Shown here piece after piece: positions 14,857 to 21,190 of a DNA stretch of 64,000 nt (positions within the stretch are counted from its first letter, which is position 1; each line of letters begins with the position of its first letter). Location of the stretch: the NCBI RefSeq assembly GCF_900188255.1, contig NZ_FZNS01000001.1:806001-870000 (forward strand), given 5' to 3'. This DNA is from Hymenobacter mucosus. Lineage in GTDB: Bacteria; Bacteroidota; Bacteroidia; Cytophagales; Hymenobacteraceae. A program made the position numbers and the translations under genes. The notes under the pieces were generated by a model. That model ran no database searches and was not told the DNA's origin. It saw nothing but the letters and a program-made list of their open reading frames with translations.

Positions 14857-15459
14857 ATGAAAGGCATCCTATATACCGGCGGCGAACTAACGGACTTAGT
14901 GAGCTTTGCGCGTCTTCCCTCCTACCTACAAGCTTTCCTGCGCGACCAGAATGGGGTGGTGGCCTACTTCGGAGGCCTCCATATTCGCGGCTGCGTGCAG
15001 GAGCCGGGCTGGCACTCCCTGGCCGATGTGTGGCAGGGTGAGGCCGCCTTTTGGCGCACGTATGCTACCGTACTGGAAACCGATATCCCCTTCGCGCAAG
15101 ACTGCGTGGGCAACCAGTTTCTGCTGCGCGGCGACGCCGTGTTTTTTCTCGACACCGAAACTGGTGAGTTGGCCGATTTGGAGGTTGACTTCAAGCACTT
15201 CTTATTTGGGGCCGAGAAGTTTCCGTTGGATGCCCTGGGCATGGAGCCCTTACGAGGCTTTCAGCAGAAAGGCGGCATGCTACCTCCCGGTCAGCTACTC
15301 AGTTTATACCCGCCGGCCTGTATTGCTACGCCCAGTAAGCAGCCTGCTACGGTGAAGCCCGTTCCGGTGGCCGAGCGCCTGGCTTGGCTGGCCGATTTCT
15401 ACCGTCAGATCAAGGACTTGCCGGATGGGCAGTCTATCCGGCTGAAACCAACGGAGTAA
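14857..15459 (+). CDS. SMI1/KNR4 (SUKH)-like protein
   Basis: 200 aa, no signal peptide, so cytoplasmic. The pattern fits the SUKH superfamily: an N-terminal helix region, GGLHIRGC, then WHSLADVW, the turn FAQDCVGNQFLLRGDAVFFLD and ETGELADLEVDFKHFL. SUKH proteins include immunity proteins against contact-dependent toxins. No toxin gene is next to it, and the similarity is recognised by pattern only. It ends 15 bp before the LtaS-like gene and is probably co-transcribed with it. Confidence 0.6.
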   Translation: MKGILYTGGELTDLVSFARLPSYLQAFLRDQNGVVAYFGGLHIRGCVQEPGWHSLADVWQGEAAFWRTYATVLETDIPFAQDCVGNQFLLRGDAVFFLDTETGELADLEVDFKHFLFGAEKFPLDALGMEPLRGFQQKGGMLPPGQLLSLYPPACIATPSKQPATVKPVPVAERLAWLADFYRQIKDLPDGQSIRLKPTE

Positions 15460-15474
15460 CGTAGCCGCCACCTC

Positions 15475-17382
15475 ATGCCTTCCGTATTTTTCCGCCTGCT
15501 GCTGCGCCGGTTTGCGTTACTACTGGGTCTGTATGTACTGCTTCGGCTAGGGTTTTACCTGGCTAATTATGCTGTATTTCAGGAGGCTAGCGCGGGGGAA
15601 GTACTGCTAGCATTCTGGCACGGCTTCCGGTTCGATATTTCGGGTCTGCTGTTGCTGAACGTGCCGTTTCTGCTGCTTTCCCTAGTGCCCAATTTGGGCC
15701 AGCGGTGGCAGGCCTTCGTACGCGGCGTATACCTCACACTGAATGCCATCGGCATCTCTCTTAACCTGATTGACACCCAATATTTCAAGTTTATTGGGCG
15801 CCGTACCAGCAATGAGCTGTTTACCATCACCGATGACATTCAGCGGCAGGCAGGCCAACTTGCCGGGCACTACTGGTTTCTGCTGATACCTTTTGTGGTT
15901 CTCTTCGGCCTGCTCTGGTACTGCTACCCTATGCCCAGCCCCGCAGCCGTGCCCGCGCGCCCAACTGGCCCGCGCGGGTGGATACGGCCCGGCCTAGAGT
16001 TTATTCTAGTAGCTGGCCTGACTGTACTGGGCATTCGGGGAGGCTTGCAGTTGAAGCCTTTGCGCACTGGGCACGCGTTTGTGCAAAGCCCGCCTATTCT
16101 GGGCCACGTAGCATTAAACAGTACCTTTACCTTCCTGAAAAGCCTGGGCTACCAACCCGCCGAGCGACGCCAGTATTTCGCTTCGGCCGCGGCGTTGCAA
16201 CCCGCACTAGCCCGCCGTGCACCCGCCATCCCGCCCCACGACACTACCAGCCGCCGGCGCGACAACGTGGTTATTCTGCTAGTGGAAAGCTTTGCTTCGG
16301 AATACAACGGCATCGAAAACGGCGGGCAGGGCTACACTCCCTTCTTTGACTCGTTGGCTACGAAAGGCCTGTTTTTTCGTAACCACTACGCCAATGGGCG
16401 CCGCTCCATTGAGTCGTTGCCGGCAGTACTGGCGGGGCTGCCTTCCCTCATGGAAAGCTCGTTTATCACCTCCAATTTTCAGACCGATGAACTACACGGC
16501 CTGGGCGAACTGCTGGGGCGGGCGGGCTACACCACCTCGGTTTTTCATGGAGCGCAAAACGGCACCATGGGCTTCAACACCTTTGCGGGTATTGCGGGCA
16601 TGCAGCAGTACTACGGCCTGAACGAGTACCCCGGTGGGGCCCAAAGTCCCGATTTTGATGGGCACTGGGGCATCTTCGATGAACCTTACTTGCAGTATTT
16701 TGCTCGGCAGCTAGGCCAACAACCACAGCCATTTTTCTCCCTGGTATTTACACTGACTTCGCACGAGCCCTTCCCCGTACCAGCCCAATACCAGGGCCGG
16801 TTTGCCCCGGGTGAGCTGCCCATTCATGCCTCTATTGGGTACACCGATTTTGCTTTACGCCAGTTTTTTAAGGCCGCGGCGCGCCAACCCTGGTATCAGA
16901 ACACCCTGTTTATTCTGCTAGCTGACCACACCTCTCAAACGCTGCGGCCCGATTACCAGAACACGCTCGGCTCTTACAAGACACCCCTGCTACTTTTCCA
17001 TCCGGTCCGCCAGCTACCCTCGGCCAATGTAGAGCGCATCACCCAGCAGGCCGATTTGCCAGCTACGGTACTTGACTACCTGGGCGTCTCTGCCCCGGGC
17101 AAGCTACTCCCCTTCGGCTACTCCGTATTCGATGCAGGCACTACGGGGCGGGCTCTGTTTTTGAGTGGCGGCAGCTACTTTCTTGTTCACCAAGACTTTG
17201 TTACGGAACTGACGGCTGACAACCAAGTACGGCTGTATTCCTACCGTACCCACCAACTACCTGCCGCGCCCTTATCAAACCCCGATCCGCAGAAAGTACT
17301 TCAGTACGGCAATGAGCTGAAGGCATGCGTGCAGTTCTTCCTGAACGGCCTAGCCGACAATAGTTTGTACAAGCACCAGTAG
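15475..17382 (+). CDS. LtaS-like sulfatase-fold membrane protein
   Basis: 635 aa inner-membrane protein of the LTA synthase / phosphoglycerol transferase type. About five transmembrane helices occupy residues 1-190 and a periplasmic alkaline-phosphatase-like domain follows from about 262. Metal/catalytic features are Glu271 in VILLVESFAS, Ser311 in GRRSIESLPAVL at the position of the catalytic Thr of Gram-positive LtaS, and the ADHT motif near residue 484. In Gram-negative bacteria such enzymes usually add phosphoglycerol or phosphoethanolamine to envelope glycans. Ser in place of Thr is noteworthy but occurs in sulfatase-fold relatives. Confidence 0.85.
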   Translation: MPSVFFRLLLRRFALLLGLYVLLRLGFYLANYAVFQEASAGEVLLAFWHGFRFDISGLLLLNVPFLLLSLVPNLGQRWQAFVRGVYLTLNAIGISLNLIDTQYFKFIGRRTSNELFTITDDIQRQAGQLAGHYWFLLIPFVVLFGLLWYCYPMPSPAAVPARPTGPRGWIRPGLEFILVAGLTVLGIRGGLQLKPLRTGHAFVQSPPILGHVALNSTFTFLKSLGYQPAERRQYFASAAALQPALARRAPAIPPHDTTSRRRDNVVILLVESFASEYNGIENGGQGYTPFFDSLATKGLFFRNHYANGRRSIESLPAVLAGLPSLMESSFITSNFQTDELHGLGELLGRAGYTTSVFHGAQNGTMGFNTFAGIAGMQQYYGLNEYPGGAQSPDFDGHWGIFDEPYLQYFARQLGQQPQPFFSLVFTLTSHEPFPVPAQYQGRFAPGELPIHASIGYTDFALRQFFKAAARQPWYQNTLFILLADHTSQTLRPDYQNTLGSYKTPLLLFHPVRQLPSANVERITQQADLPATVLDYLGVSAPGKLLPFGYSVFDAGTTGRALFLSGGSYFLVHQDFVTELTADNQVRLYSYRTHQLPAAPLSNPDPQKVLQYGNELKACVQFFLNGLADNSLYKHQ

Positions 17383-17405
17383 CAGCGCAGCCGCGCTGCT
17401 ACTGG
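17376..17405. terminator. hairpin between convergent genes
   Basis: Perfect 13-bp arms (17376-17388 and 17393-17405) with an AGCC loop. The left arm includes the stop codon of the LtaS-like gene. There is no T-tract, so terminator function is likely but not certain. Confidence 0.5.
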
Positions 17406-17410
17406 TTGAT

Positions 17411-17869
17411 TTACGGTTGTTGAACTTCCCCGTAGCTGGGCACCTCCAGTAGCCGCTCGTTGGTACGATGCACAAAGTCGACGCGCCAGCAGAAGTGGTG
17501 CAGCCCATTTGTAAGTAGCAGCAAAGGGGCACCTATCGTTTGGTTGTAGGTAGCCGCTTGCAAGGCCACATCGGCCGTGATGGGCACGCTAGGGGCTTTG
17601 CATTCCACTAGTAACAAAGGGCGGCCGTAGGCATCAAGGGCGCAGAGGTCGGTGCGCTTCTGGCGCTGGTTGTACGTATGGCCGCGCTCCAAGCTCAACA
17701 GTCCTTTGGGATAGCCCCGATGATTGATCAGGTAGTGGACCACGTGTTGGCGCACCCACTCCTCGGGAGTAAGTACTATATTACGCCGACGCAATACATC
17801 CCAGATTAGCAAATTTTCGCTGGATTTTGTAACTTTGTACTCGAAAGGCGGCAGGTTCAACTCTTGCAT
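17411..17869 (-). CDS. orphan type I restriction enzyme R N-terminal (HsdR_N) domain protein
   Basis: 152 aa from the ATG at 17869. The in-frame ATG at 17929 would add residues across the promoter box. The nuclease-fold signature is visible: RTDLCALD, about 17 residues after GYPKGLLSLE, then LLLVECKAP, i.e. D...ExK of the PD-(D/E)xK superfamily. It lacks the helicase and translocase parts of HsdR, and no hsdM or hsdS is nearby. Small stand-alone proteins of this kind are widespread in Bacteroidota and have no established role. A TACCTTTG box lies 6 nt before the start codon. Confidence 0.85.
   Translation of the reverse strand: MQELNLPPFEYKVTKSSENLLIWDVLRRRNIVLTPEEWVRQHVVHYLINHRGYPKGLLSLERGHTYNQRQKRTDLCALDAYGRPLLLVECKAPSVPITADVALQAATYNQTIGAPLLLLTNGLHHFCWRVDFVHRTNERLLEVPSYGEVQQP
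17830..17837 (+). promoter_or_regulatory. -7 box directed at the AMP nucleosidase gene
   Basis: TAACTTTG matches TAnnTTTG and lies inside the 5' part of the divergent HsdR_N gene. A transcript from about 17843 would meet the terminator at 17921-17953 before reaching the ATG at 18051. No good -33 TTG. Confidence 0.45.
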
Positions 17870-17875
17870 CACCTC

Positions 17876-17883
17876 CAAAGGTA
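17876..17883 (-). promoter_or_regulatory. -7 box 6 nt before the HsdR_N start codon
   Basis: Minus-strand TACCTTTG (17883-17876). Minus-strand TTTG at 17900-17897 is 13 bp upstream. With the start codon at 17869 the mRNA would be leaderless or nearly so. Confidence 0.5.
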
Positions 17884-17920
17884 CGGCCCTGGGCTCCAAA
17901 CTCCCGCTTTTCGTCCCGTA

Positions 17921-17953
17921 CCGTCGCACCCCTCGGGTTCCGACGGTTTTTTT
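17921..17953 (+). terminator. orphan intrinsic terminator in the AMP nucleosidase leader
   Basis: CCGTCG (17921-17926) pairs with CGACGG (17941-17946), an inner ACCC/GGGT pair closes the loop, and seven T follow (17947-17953). No plus-strand gene ends upstream, so it can only act on a transcript started within the HsdR_N gene or in the leader of the gene at 18051. Confidence 0.7.
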
Positions 17954-18050
17954 GTACCTCTATTTTCCGGCTGTGCAAAGCTGGTGGCGGCCCCAAGCCG
18001 CGACTGACCTTGTCGCAGCCTTTTGTAAAGACACTTTAATTCCCTTCTAT

Positions 18051-18824
18051 ATGAAAACCAAAGCCGACATTGTTGAGAACTGGCTCCCCCGCTACACTGG
18101 CGTGCCCCTGAACGAGTTCGGGCAGTATATTTTGCTGACCAACTTTATCAACTACGTATCCATGTTTGCCGAGCAGTTTGGGGTGGAGATTCGCGGCATC
18201 GACAAGCCCATGCAAACGGCTACGGCCAACGGCATCACCATTATCAACTTCGGTATGGGCTCTCCCATGGCAGCTACCGTGATGGACCTGCTTTCAGCCA
18301 TCAAGCCTAAGGCGGCGCTGTTCTTGGGTAAGTGCGGGGGCTTGAAGAACAAGACCAAGCTCGGCGACCTGATTTTGCCTATTGCCGCCATCCGGGGTGA
18401 GGGTACCTCCGATGACTACCTGCCAGCTGAAATTCCCGCCCTGCCTTCGTTCCGCTTGCAGCGTGCCGTGTCTTCCATGATCAAGAAGCACGAGAAGGAT
18501 TACTGGACCGGCACGGTATACACTACCAACCGCCGCGTGTGGGAGCACGATGAAAACTTCAAAGAATACCTGCGGCAGATTCGGGCCATGGCCGTGGACA
18601 TGGAAACTGCTACCATCTTCACCGTGGGCTTCGTGAATGAAATTCCTCACGGCGCCCTCCTGCTGGTGAGCGACAACCCCATGACGCCCGAAGGCGTGAA
18701 AACCTCGGAGAGCGATAAAAAGGTAACTGCTGACTTCGTGACGGCCCACCTGCAAATCGGAATTGAGTCGCTGCTGGAACTCAAGAACTCCGGGGAGTCG
18801 GTGAAGCACATGCGCTTCGAGTAG
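18051..18824 (+). CDS. amn: AMP nucleosidase, short form
   Basis: 257 aa purine-nucleoside-phosphorylase-fold enzyme predicted to hydrolyse AMP to adenine and ribose 5-phosphate. The start at 18051 gives MKTKADIVENWLPRYTG, the usual Bacteroidota N-terminus; the frame upstream passes through a terminator. INFGMGSPMAA and FLGKCGGLK form the phosphate/ribose site, MAVDMETATIF the conserved Met-Glu motif, and LLVSDNPMTPEG the base-binding Asp loop. It lacks the extra N-terminal domain of the ~480-aa E. coli enzyme, as is normal for this phylum. The leader contains a terminator-like hairpin. Confidence 0.9.
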   Translation: MKTKADIVENWLPRYTGVPLNEFGQYILLTNFINYVSMFAEQFGVEIRGIDKPMQTATANGITIINFGMGSPMAATVMDLLSAIKPKAALFLGKCGGLKNKTKLGDLILPIAAIRGEGTSDDYLPAEIPALPSFRLQRAVSSMIKKHEKDYWTGTVYTTNRRVWEHDENFKEYLRQIRAMAVDMETATIFTVGFVNEIPHGALLLVSDNPMTPEGVKTSESDKKVTADFVTAHLQIGIESLLELKNSGESVKHMRFE

Positions 18825-18856
18825 AGCACCAGAACCTAGGTAGCTAGGATCCTTTC

Positions 18857-18890
18857 AAGCCCGAACCAATGACTTGGTTCGGGCTTTTTG
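18857..18890 (+). terminator. intrinsic terminator of the AMP nucleosidase gene
   Basis: AAGCCCGAACCAA-TGAC-TTGGTTCGGGCTT with a following T-tract; perfect 13-bp arms. Confidence 0.9.
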
Positions 18891-19066
18891 TTGGGGGTAG
18901 TTCAGCGCTTATGCCTCCTTTTTGTAATATTTATGGGTAGAAGAAGTAGGCTGGGCGCGAGTAATTAGTACTTTTAGCCAGCAAGCCTGCATAAATAGCG
19001 TCGGTATCAGCCAACGCTGTGTTAGTTGAACTGAGCTTCATTGCGTTGCTCCAACCCATTGTCTTT

Positions 19067-19504
19067 ATGAGTTCGTTCAGCTCCAATTATCTCACTATCC
19101 ATTATAGCACCGAGCAAAACTTGCTGGTAGCCCGCTGGCAGCGTTCGGTGATGCCGTTTGAAATGCACCGCGGCTATGGGGCTTTGTTAGATGAGGCAGC
19201 GGCGCAAGATTGCCGTTTTTGGCTGGTAGATACCCGGCGGCGAACCAGCGTAGATGCTGCCGATGTGCACTGGATGCTAGACGAGTTTTACCCTAAGCTC
19301 CACCCGCGCCTTGGCCGGACTACCTTCCTAGCTTTCTTGATGGCACCCAATCAGCTTGCGGGCATCCTTGCCGACCCCAGTGTGCCGGCTTTGAACGTGC
19401 TTGATGGGCGTCCCTACGTGATTCAGCGCTTCACAGAAGAGGCCAACGCCCTGACCTGGTTACAGCAAATGCAGGAGCACGAAACACTAGTAGAGCGGAA
19501 GTAG
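19067..19504 (+). CDS. hypothetical cytoplasmic protein
   Basis: 145 aa from ATG 19067; upstream in-frame residues are hydrophobic and look non-coding. It has no signal peptide or membrane span. The pattern (YLTIHYSTEQNLLVARWQRSV, then LLDEAAAQDCRFWLVDTRRRTSVD, then a C-terminal helix ANALTWLQQM) resembles STAS/SpoIIAA-like small alpha/beta proteins of unknown function in Bacteroidota. I do not recognise a specific family. It ends 33 bp before the next gene. Confidence 0.7.
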   Translation: MSSFSSNYLTIHYSTEQNLLVARWQRSVMPFEMHRGYGALLDEAAAQDCRFWLVDTRRRTSVDAADVHWMLDEFYPKLHPRLGRTTFLAFLMAPNQLAGILADPSVPALNVLDGRPYVIQRFTEEANALTWLQQMQEHETLVERK

Positions 19505-19525
19505 CAGGCACGGGCGTTGGTTGTG

Positions 19526-19533
19526 TACCTTCG
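19526..19533 (+). promoter_or_regulatory. -7 box 4 nt before the amidohydrolase start codon
   Basis: TACCTTCG (TAnnTTyG), with the ATG at 19538. A transcript would be leaderless. The box supports this start over 19517. Confidence 0.5.
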
Positions 19534-19537
19534 CAAC

Positions 19538-21190
19538 ATGACCCGACTTCGACTCCTATCTTTTCTGGCTGCCCCGGCTTTACTAGCGGGTTGTGCCAAC
19601 ACTACTCGTACGCCCGCCGATGTACTAGTGTACAATGCTACGGTATACACCGTCGACTCCACCTTTAGCACGGCCCAAGCCTTCGCCATTCAGGATGGTA
19701 AATTTGTAGCAGTAGGTTCGGCCGAGGAGCTGCGGGGGAAGTTTCAGGCCAAACAAGAGGTAGATGCCAGAGGCCAGTTTGTGTACCCGGGCTTTTACGA
19801 TGCGCACTGCCACTTCTACCGTTACGCTTTGGGCCTGCGCGACGCCGACCTGGTAGGTACCAGTTCGTGGCAAGAGGTAGTGCAGAAGCTACAGCAGCAG
19901 CGTAAGCAATATCCGCAGGCCGCCTGGATTACGGGTCGGGGCTGGGACCAAAACGACTGGCCCGGCAAGCAGTTCCCAACCAAAGACACCCTGGACGCCC
20001 TATTTCCCAACACGCCGGTATTTATAACCCGGGTAGATGGTCACGCTGCCCTCGTGAATCAGAAAGCGTTGGAGCTGGCTGGCATTACGGCGCGCACGCC
20101 CATCAGCGGTGGTACTATTACCAAAGACGCTAGTGGTAAGCTCACCGGCTTGCTCGTGGACAATGCGGTGCGCTTGGTATCAGGCAAGATTCCGGAGCCA
20201 ACGGCAGCCGAGGCTGAAGCGGCCGTACTGGAAGCCCAGCAGCGTTGCGTAGCCGTAGGGCTAACCAGCCTGGCCGACGCGGGCCTTGAAAAAGCCAACA
20301 TCGACCGACTAGCCGATTTGCAGGATCAGGGCAAGCTCAAGCTGCGCCTATACGCTATGCTGGCTCCTACTAAAGAAAACAAGCAGTACTACCTTAAAAA
20401 TGGCCCCGTGTTCAAGGACCGGCTGACGGTGTGCTCGTTTAAGGTGTACGCCGATGGCGCCCTGGGCTCCCGTGGCGCCTGCCTGATTCATTCCTACGCC
20501 GACCGCCCCCAGGAAACCGGGTTCTTGCTTTCGTCGGTGGCCGACTTTCGCAGCTTGGCCAAGGAACTAGCCGCCAGTAAGTTTCAGATGAATACGCACG
20601 CCATCGGCGACTCGAGCAACCGCCTCCTACTTGATATATACGGCGCTGCTCTACACGGCCAAAAAGACCGGCGCTGGCGCATCGAACACGCCCAGATTGT
20701 AAGTAAGACCGATGTACCCAAGTTTGGGCAGTTTGGTATTGTGCCCTCGGTGCAGCCAACCCACGCTACGTCCGACATGTACTGGGCCGGTGAGCGACTA
20801 GGGCCCGACCGTCTAAAGACGGCCTATGCCTTCAATGACTTGCGTAAGCAGTACGGACAGGTAGCTCTCGGCTCGGATTTTCCCGTGGAAGATATTAACC
20901 CGCTTTTCGGGTTTCACTCGGCCGTAGCCCGGCAGGATGCCAAGAACTACCCCGCCAGTGGCTTCCAGATGGAAAACGCCTTGAGCCGCCCCGATGCCTT
21001 ACGCGGCATGACAACGTGGGCCGCCCACGCAGCCTTCCAGGAAAAGCAAAAAGGCAGCATCCGGCCCGGTATGGCCGCCGACTTCGTTATTCTGGATACT
21101 GACCTGTTGCAAGCACCGAAAGAGAAGCTTCGCAGCGCTAAGGTGCAGCAAACCTGGATTGCTGGCGAACAAGTATTTGCGGCTAAGTAG
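19538..21190 (+). CDS. amidohydrolase family lipoprotein (YtcJ-like)
   Basis: 550 aa metal-dependent hydrolase. The start at 19538 places a lipobox LLAGC at residues 15-19, so the enzyme is an exported lipoprotein. The amidohydrolase fold is marked by DAHCHFY (HxH, first metal ligands) near residue 88, FKVYADGALGSRGA near 304, the mid-domain His in NTHAIGDSSN near 357, RIEHAQIV near 386 and the final Asp in ALGSDFPVE near 448. It belongs to the YtcJ/TIM-barrel group annotated as predicted amidohydrolases. The substrate is unknown. Confidence 0.87.
   Translation: MTRLRLLSFLAAPALLAGCANTTRTPADVLVYNATVYTVDSTFSTAQAFAIQDGKFVAVGSAEELRGKFQAKQEVDARGQFVYPGFYDAHCHFYRYALGLRDADLVGTSSWQEVVQKLQQQRKQYPQAAWITGRGWDQNDWPGKQFPTKDTLDALFPNTPVFITRVDGHAALVNQKALELAGITARTPISGGTITKDASGKLTGLLVDNAVRLVSGKIPEPTAAEAEAAVLEAQQRCVAVGLTSLADAGLEKANIDRLADLQDQGKLKLRLYAMLAPTKENKQYYLKNGPVFKDRLTVCSFKVYADGALGSRGACLIHSYADRPQETGFLLSSVADFRSLAKELAASKFQMNTHAIGDSSNRLLLDIYGAALHGQKDRRWRIEHAQIVSKTDVPKFGQFGIVPSVQPTHATSDMYWAGERLGPDRLKTAYAFNDLRKQYGQVALGSDFPVEDINPLFGFHSAVARQDAKNYPASGFQMENALSRPDALRGMTTWAAHAAFQEKQKGSIRPGMAADFVILDTDLLQAPKEKLRSAKVQQTWIAGEQVFAAK

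Follow-up and report, generated by a model that had tools for sequence, protein, structure and literature searches.

Attenuators in 5′ UTRs generally combine a promoter, a structured leader, a terminator with a U-tract before the gene, and a helix that overlaps the terminator stem. For the Bacteroidota, the transcript maps of Bacteroides thetaiotaomicron and Flavobacterium psychrophilum cover the promoter box as well as structured 5′ UTRs and antisense RNAs (PMC7366714, PMC9723704). The structured 5′ elements of F. psychrophilum are thought to be regulatory, and the sigma-A box is given as spanning −12 to −5 in a flavobacterium (PMC9723704). The DonS-type cis-antisense RNAs of Bacteroides are 78–128 nt long, divergent, and antisense to a neighboring gene, the neighbors being susC homologs (PMC7366714). 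Two further arrangements are similar in outline, namely, the excludon, in which divergent 5′ ends overlap, and pT181-type attenuation, in which an antisense RNA decides termination.

The locus described here lies in a window of 64,000 nt from Hymenobacter mucosus (GCF_900188255.1, contig NZ_FZNS01000001.1, positions 806,001–870,000, forward strand), and all coordinates are those of this window (Table 1). Its amn gene encodes AMP nucleosidase, which splits AMP into adenine and ribose phosphate; the bacteria concerned are soil and water bacteria. Upstream of amn is a divergent gene with an HsdR_N domain. The nearest long plus-strand open reading frame (ORF) upstream of the terminator ends at 17382, in agreement with the original prediction that no plus-strand gene precedes it. 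At the end of that ORF, facing the end of HsdR_N, a strong hairpin (CAGTAGCAGCGC/GCGCTGCTACTG, 17379–17406) is found that has no T-run. A tRNA search of positions 15000–20000 gave none. The divergent HsdR_N–amn pair also occurs beyond the family, in L078, L083, and L087 (Roseivirga and Cyclobacteriaceae MAGs), with start codons 33–37 nt apart.

The amn leader shares with 5′ UTR attenuators the first three of the elements listed above, the promoter being a probable one, and has a candidate for the fourth, but it differs from them in that the probable promoter and the predicted first leader bases lie inside the codons of the divergent gene and in having neither a known ligand nor a start for a leader peptide. 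A leader-peptide attenuator was rejected for the window's leader, since there is no ATG or GTG in 17842–17953. The amn leader has in common with the F. psychrophilum elements the phylum, the same −7 box, and a structured 5′ element, although that species belongs to another family than the genus carrying the amn leader (PMC9723704). The predicted leader RNA of ~112 nt is within the size range of the DonS-type RNAs described (PMC7366714); however, its target would be the HsdR_N gene, and it would share its start with the amn mRNA. Compared with the outlines of the excludon and of pT181 given above, the HsdR_N–amn overlap is only ~30 nt, and mutual control is a candidate only.

Full-text literature searches for AMP nucleosidase or Hymenobacter with riboswitch, and a search for Hymenobacter with small RNA and terminator, returned nothing. 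AMP nucleosidase with attenuation and leader led only to work on E. coli PhoB, and AMP nucleosidase with Bacteroidetes gave, judging by titles, nothing on its control. The word "nucleosidase" is absent from the main texts of PMC9723704 and PMC7366714.

Table 1. Features of the HsdR_N–amn region in window coordinates.
Feature	Coordinates	Strand	Basis
amn, AMP nucleosidase, 257 aa	18051..18824	+	NF005500 and TIGR01721 above cut-off; PF01048
Divergent HsdR_N-domain gene, 152 aa	17411..17869	−	PF13588; ORF with stop
TAnnTTTG (−7) box TAACTTTG, probable amn promoter	17830..17837	+	Within HsdR_N codons 11–13; comparison
Predicted ~112-nt leader RNA, +1 to end of T-run	17842..17953	+	Box position and T-run
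P1 helix, 5′ strand GAAAGGCG, also HsdR_N coding	17843..17850	+	Pairs with 17905–17912
P1 helix, 3′ strand CGCTTTTC	17905..17912	+	Alignment pairing; RNAalifold
Candidate antiterminator, 5′ strand GGTACGG	17880..17886	+	Alignment pairing; moderate support
Candidate antiterminator, 3′ strand CCGTACC	17916..17922	+	Overlaps first three bases of terminator stem
Intrinsic terminator, stem 17920–17926/17941–17947, T-run to 17953	17920..17953	+	Fold; 86/120 genomes; compensating changes
HsdR_N TAnnTTTG box TACCTTTG, +1 ~17871	17876..17883	−	117/120 genomes at same offset

The terminator hairpin and its distribution

The original prediction consisted of a TAnnTTTG box and, downstream of it, a hairpin with seven T followed by 97 bp to amn. 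Both observations were confirmed, far beyond chance. In a set of 120 genomes of the genus, all with an amn match, the box is retained at the same place in HsdR_N in every one, and the hairpin with its T-run, at −10 kcal/mol or lower, in 86. A further genome, L150, passed this threshold (87 in all) but was excluded by eye, its hairpin being unrelated; 34 of the 120 genomes are without the hairpin. The stem is formed by ACCGTCG and CGACGGT, with an inner ACCC/GGGT stem, and the T-run (17947–17953) has seven T, the first of them paired, with 97 nt between 17953 and the ATG of amn. Its predicted fold, −15.3 kcal/mol (z −2.05), was equaled or bettered by 6 of 200 shuffles. As in intrinsic terminators, the stem is G+C-rich and the U-tract follows it directly. 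A consensus terminator scanner did not call the hairpin at 17920–17953, we think owing to the scanner's maximum loop size of 8.

The 86 hairpin leaders comprise 83 distinct sequences, which were aligned in two sets, A2 (63 leaders, clade A) and A1 (20 leaders, clade B); the split was made by eye, and the terminator starts of L132 and L129 were placed by hand. As regards the covariation check suggested along with the original prediction, compensating changes in the stem were found in one set but not in the other. In the A2 stem, 99.5% of cells are paired and two pairs show double changes (22 cells); the paired percentage, the double-change cells, and the score were each matched by none of 500 shuffles, whereas on the other two of the five measures, how many pairs and how many pair types, 256 of 500 did as well. 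In the A1 stem, 97.3% of cells are paired, with no double changes among the 20 leaders. At the level of sequence, a terminator stem with compensating changes is supported.

We also sampled 40 further genomes of the family: 8 of 8 from sister genus g6, 28 of 50 from g5, 2 of 16 from g4, 2 of 2 from g3, and 0 of 8 from g2. The same stem was found by pattern in all eight g6 genomes, and a CCGCC/GGCGG stem with a T-run in 23 of the 28 from g5. By energy, 19 of these 28 reach −10 kcal/mol or better, five are weaker (−7.7 to −9.2), and four give no match; L215 fits the pattern though it is one of these four, and L212 is off pattern but folds at −14.1. The hairpin was not found in the four sampled genomes of g3 and g4 and is thus present in two of the four sampled sister genera. 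On the tree of the 120 genus rows, clade A lies on one side of a branch, and the 34 rows without the hairpin require five changes. We infer that the terminator predates the genus and was later lost in part of it.

Two other observations concern the spacer and the reading frame of amn. Many genomes carry, just before amn, a very stable inverted repeat of their own, unrelated between genomes (e.g., L127, L161, L195, and L057:3901-3990). Counting the spacer before amn only, and skipping four genomes in which it is under 50 nt, z is −3 or lower in 55 of 116 genomes, made up of 32 of the 82 that have the terminator and 23 of the 34 that lack it; the spacer of the window has z −3.0. The amn frame is open across the whole leader in the window (ORF 17835–18824), which we take as chance since most relatives have shorter open frames. 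In one genus genome (G060:C1:4486109-4486878), the amn match is in two pieces with three stops within the first, reflecting either a broken gene or sequence errors.

Leader folding and the evidence on a possible switch

We consider it fairly probable that the hairpin is part of a 5′ UTR transcription attenuator of amn. Transcription would start at about 17842 from the sigma-A-type box embedded near the start of the divergent HsdR_N coding sequence, a position that follows from the span of the sigma-A box in the flavobacterium (PMC9723704). The nascent leader would fold P1, pairing its first nucleotides with 17905–17912, and then the terminator, so that many polymerases would stop at 17953 and release an RNA of ~112 nt, the rest continuing into amn. 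A second helix (17880–17886/17916–17922) could form before the 3′ arm of the terminator is made; it would occupy the three stem bases adjoining the U-tract and might allow the polymerase through. That transcription ends inside the amn UTR, that it does so only in part, and that the leader may switch between the two folds are inferences.

A simpler reading, quite possible though short of probable, is that the terminator is leaky and unregulated, either setting a low level of amn or blocking antisense read-through from upstream, with no switch. It is in accordance with this reading that 82 of the 83 leaders are more stable as the terminator (folds without pseudoknots) and that the hairpin has been lost in part of the genus, as described above.

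For P1, 98.0% of cells pair in A2, and RNAalifold places the helix in both alignments. Its pairing is better than that with shuffled partners (p ≤ 0.05) in 41 of the 86 hairpin genomes against 1 of the 34 others, which argues against a mere leaky terminator. P1 cannot covary because its 5′ strand is invariant: GAAAGGCGG (17843–17851) is retained in 119 of 120 genomes, including 33 of the 34 without the hairpin. Therefore, P1 is not the sole reason for the conservation of this stretch. The stretch, which would be the 5′ end of the amn RNA, is held at synonymous sites even where there is no hairpin.

The evidence for the candidate antiterminator is mixed. In A2, 92.1% of its cells pair (12 of 500 shuffles were as good), and a G-C to C-G swap occurs at one pair in three genomes; 14 of the 63 leaders have G-G at two of the pairs, and, by eye, some of these could pair in another register. 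In A1, where the terminator stem contains the partner strand, 97.9% of cells pair (2 of 500 shuffles were as good), and one pair is C-G in 10 leaders, U-A in 6, and U-G in 4, with no C-A. Before the 3′ arm of the terminator is made, no more than 2 kcal/mol separates the antiterminator from the best fold in 31 of 63 A2 leaders and 3 of 20 A1 leaders, again without pseudoknots. Two positions of the HsdR_N box are free, and both fall within the 5′ strand of the antiterminator; on the plus strand they read GG in all 86 genomes with the hairpin, against 23 of the 31 boxes present in the 34 hairpin-less genomes. These compensating changes, together with the GG constraint, tell against a terminator without a switch. 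On the other side, the changes placed on the tree amount to few independent events and cannot reach significance, and shuffling of the 5′ strand gave p ≤ 0.05 in only 21 of the 86. A swap test with 17 representatives was negative (p 0.67), a point in favor of the leaky terminator; its power was low since the stretch is wide and both strands are nearly invariant in most lineages. With one control negative, we regard the sequence support for the candidate antiterminator helix as moderate.

The probable promoter box within the HsdR_N codons

The position of the box within a coding sequence permits a codon test. Across the 120 genomes, the DNA letters of the box are constant while the HsdR_N amino acids they encode vary. 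Codon 11 is AAA in all 120, against a background share of 0.38, and the third base of codon 12 is T in all 120, whether the codon specifies leucine (52 genomes), valine (49), isoleucine (17), or threonine (2); the background shares, computed from the same genes, are 0.028 for CTT, 0.059 for GTT, and 0.287 for ATT. Among the 40 sampled family genomes, the box is at this place in 38, being absent from L214 and L227; in L212 alone a second box is present, upstream of its hairpin.

Hymenobacter gummosus (L057) offers a separate line of evidence, from one draft genome. There, the start of HsdR_N and the promoter region have been duplicated (L057:3570-3818), with the copies ~205 bp apart. The intact HsdR_N copy (159 aa) starts 404 nt from amn; its box codons are AAG CTC and its codons 7–8 CCC TTT, so that its box is lost. 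The amn-side copy has no HsdR_N reading after the first residues, yet it retains TAACTTTG, GAAAGGCGGC, the leader, and the hairpin. Since the amn-side copy keeps both box and leader and the HsdR_N copy has lost the box, these elements appear tied to amn. Together with the codon test, this rules out the box as a coding coincidence and supports selection on the promoter box at the DNA level.

It is unlikely, in our judgment, that the transcript is an independent small RNA antisense to the start of HsdR_N, with amn transcribed from a non-consensus promoter of its own after 17953. The geometry would suit it, as an RNA of ~112 nt would cover HsdR_N codons 1–9, and the spacer from the T-run to amn is usually of promoter size (29–235 nt, median 106, in the 86 genomes). 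However, the spacer is only 29 nt in three of these genomes and 19–26 nt in the 23 pattern-matched g5 genomes, the box is kept in all 34 genomes without the hairpin, and it stays with amn in H. gummosus. Nor does a second TAnnTTTG occur between the HsdR_N box and amn in any of the 120 genomes. This absence is unsurprising, since a chance box in such a gap would be expected in ~4% of genomes; it means only that no consensus amn promoter is kept after the hairpin, where a non-consensus one may lie.

Given the constancy of its letters, the absence of another such box before amn, and the H. gummosus copies, the box at 17830–17837 is very probably the amn promoter, in which case the hairpin would sit in the amn 5′ UTR. 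By comparison alone, then, the terminator is located between the promoter and the start codon of amn, as in 5′ UTR attenuators. The original prediction had left two options, a small RNA acting on HsdR_N or a terminator gating amn. The second is the better supported on sequence grounds, with a terminator placed in the amn leader by the missing second box, the short spacers, and H. gummosus, and a purely independent small RNA has become less likely. The description of the terminator as an orphan fails if it is part of the leader of amn itself. Gating and a small RNA are not mutually exclusive, because the short RNA would be a natural by-product, antisense to HsdR_N codons 1–9.

Antisense overlap with HsdR_N and its possible meaning

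The HsdR_N box lies at a fixed offset of 6 nt from its ATG in 117 of the 120 genus genomes, and the HsdR_N mRNA is therefore probably near-leaderless. By coordinates, the predicted leader RNA would be complementary to the first 28 nt of the HsdR_N coding sequence, close to the overlap of about 27 bases and the length of ~110 nt originally proposed. It has, thus, the complementarity to an overlapping gene expected of a cis-antisense RNA. It is tempting to consider the converse, a two-gene RNA switch in which base pairing of the HsdR_N message to the initial ~30 nt of the amn leader would release the P1 partner strand and shift the balance between terminator and antiterminator; we hold this to be improbable. 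The complementarity over ~17842–17871 follows from the overlap and would exist whether used or not, although GAAAGGCGG is so widely kept and the decoupled H. gummosus HsdR_N copy has changed at these codons.

When genomes of the genus were searched with a covariance model of the leader under strict filters, the top match lay at amn in 37 of 37, seven of these matches being weak and in genomes without the hairpin. The further matches were five weak ones only (E 0.02–0.08), and 22 genomes of other families gave no match (59 genomes searched in all). As the matches in these 59 genomes are, apart from the five weak ones, confined to the amn locus of this genus, the leader is not a shared aptamer. 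The leader was also rejected as a multi-copy element, with one full match in its own genome and 15 other places that are short, at E 0.29 or worse. An Rfam search gave no match at gathering scores, so that a known RNA family was rejected; with E allowed up to 10, just two snoRNA matches appeared, both of chance level. A metabolite riboswitch with an aptamer in the leader is the least likely reading, and a very improbable one: P1, the crossing helix, and the terminator do look like the expression platforms of pseudoknot riboswitches, but there is no Rfam match and, in the genomes searched, no second gene carries the leader.

The locus amounts to an experiment of nature on a promoter concealed within a coding sequence, its letters held where the genes overlap and freed, in one genome, where they have been separated. 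If the two-gene switch were true, transcription of a restriction-like gene would set AMP breakdown, and HsdR_N codons would be conserved as the leader RNA of the other strand. Under the attenuator that we favor, and because the enzyme yields adenine and ribose phosphate from AMP, the terminator in the amn leader would be a control point for adenine nucleotides.
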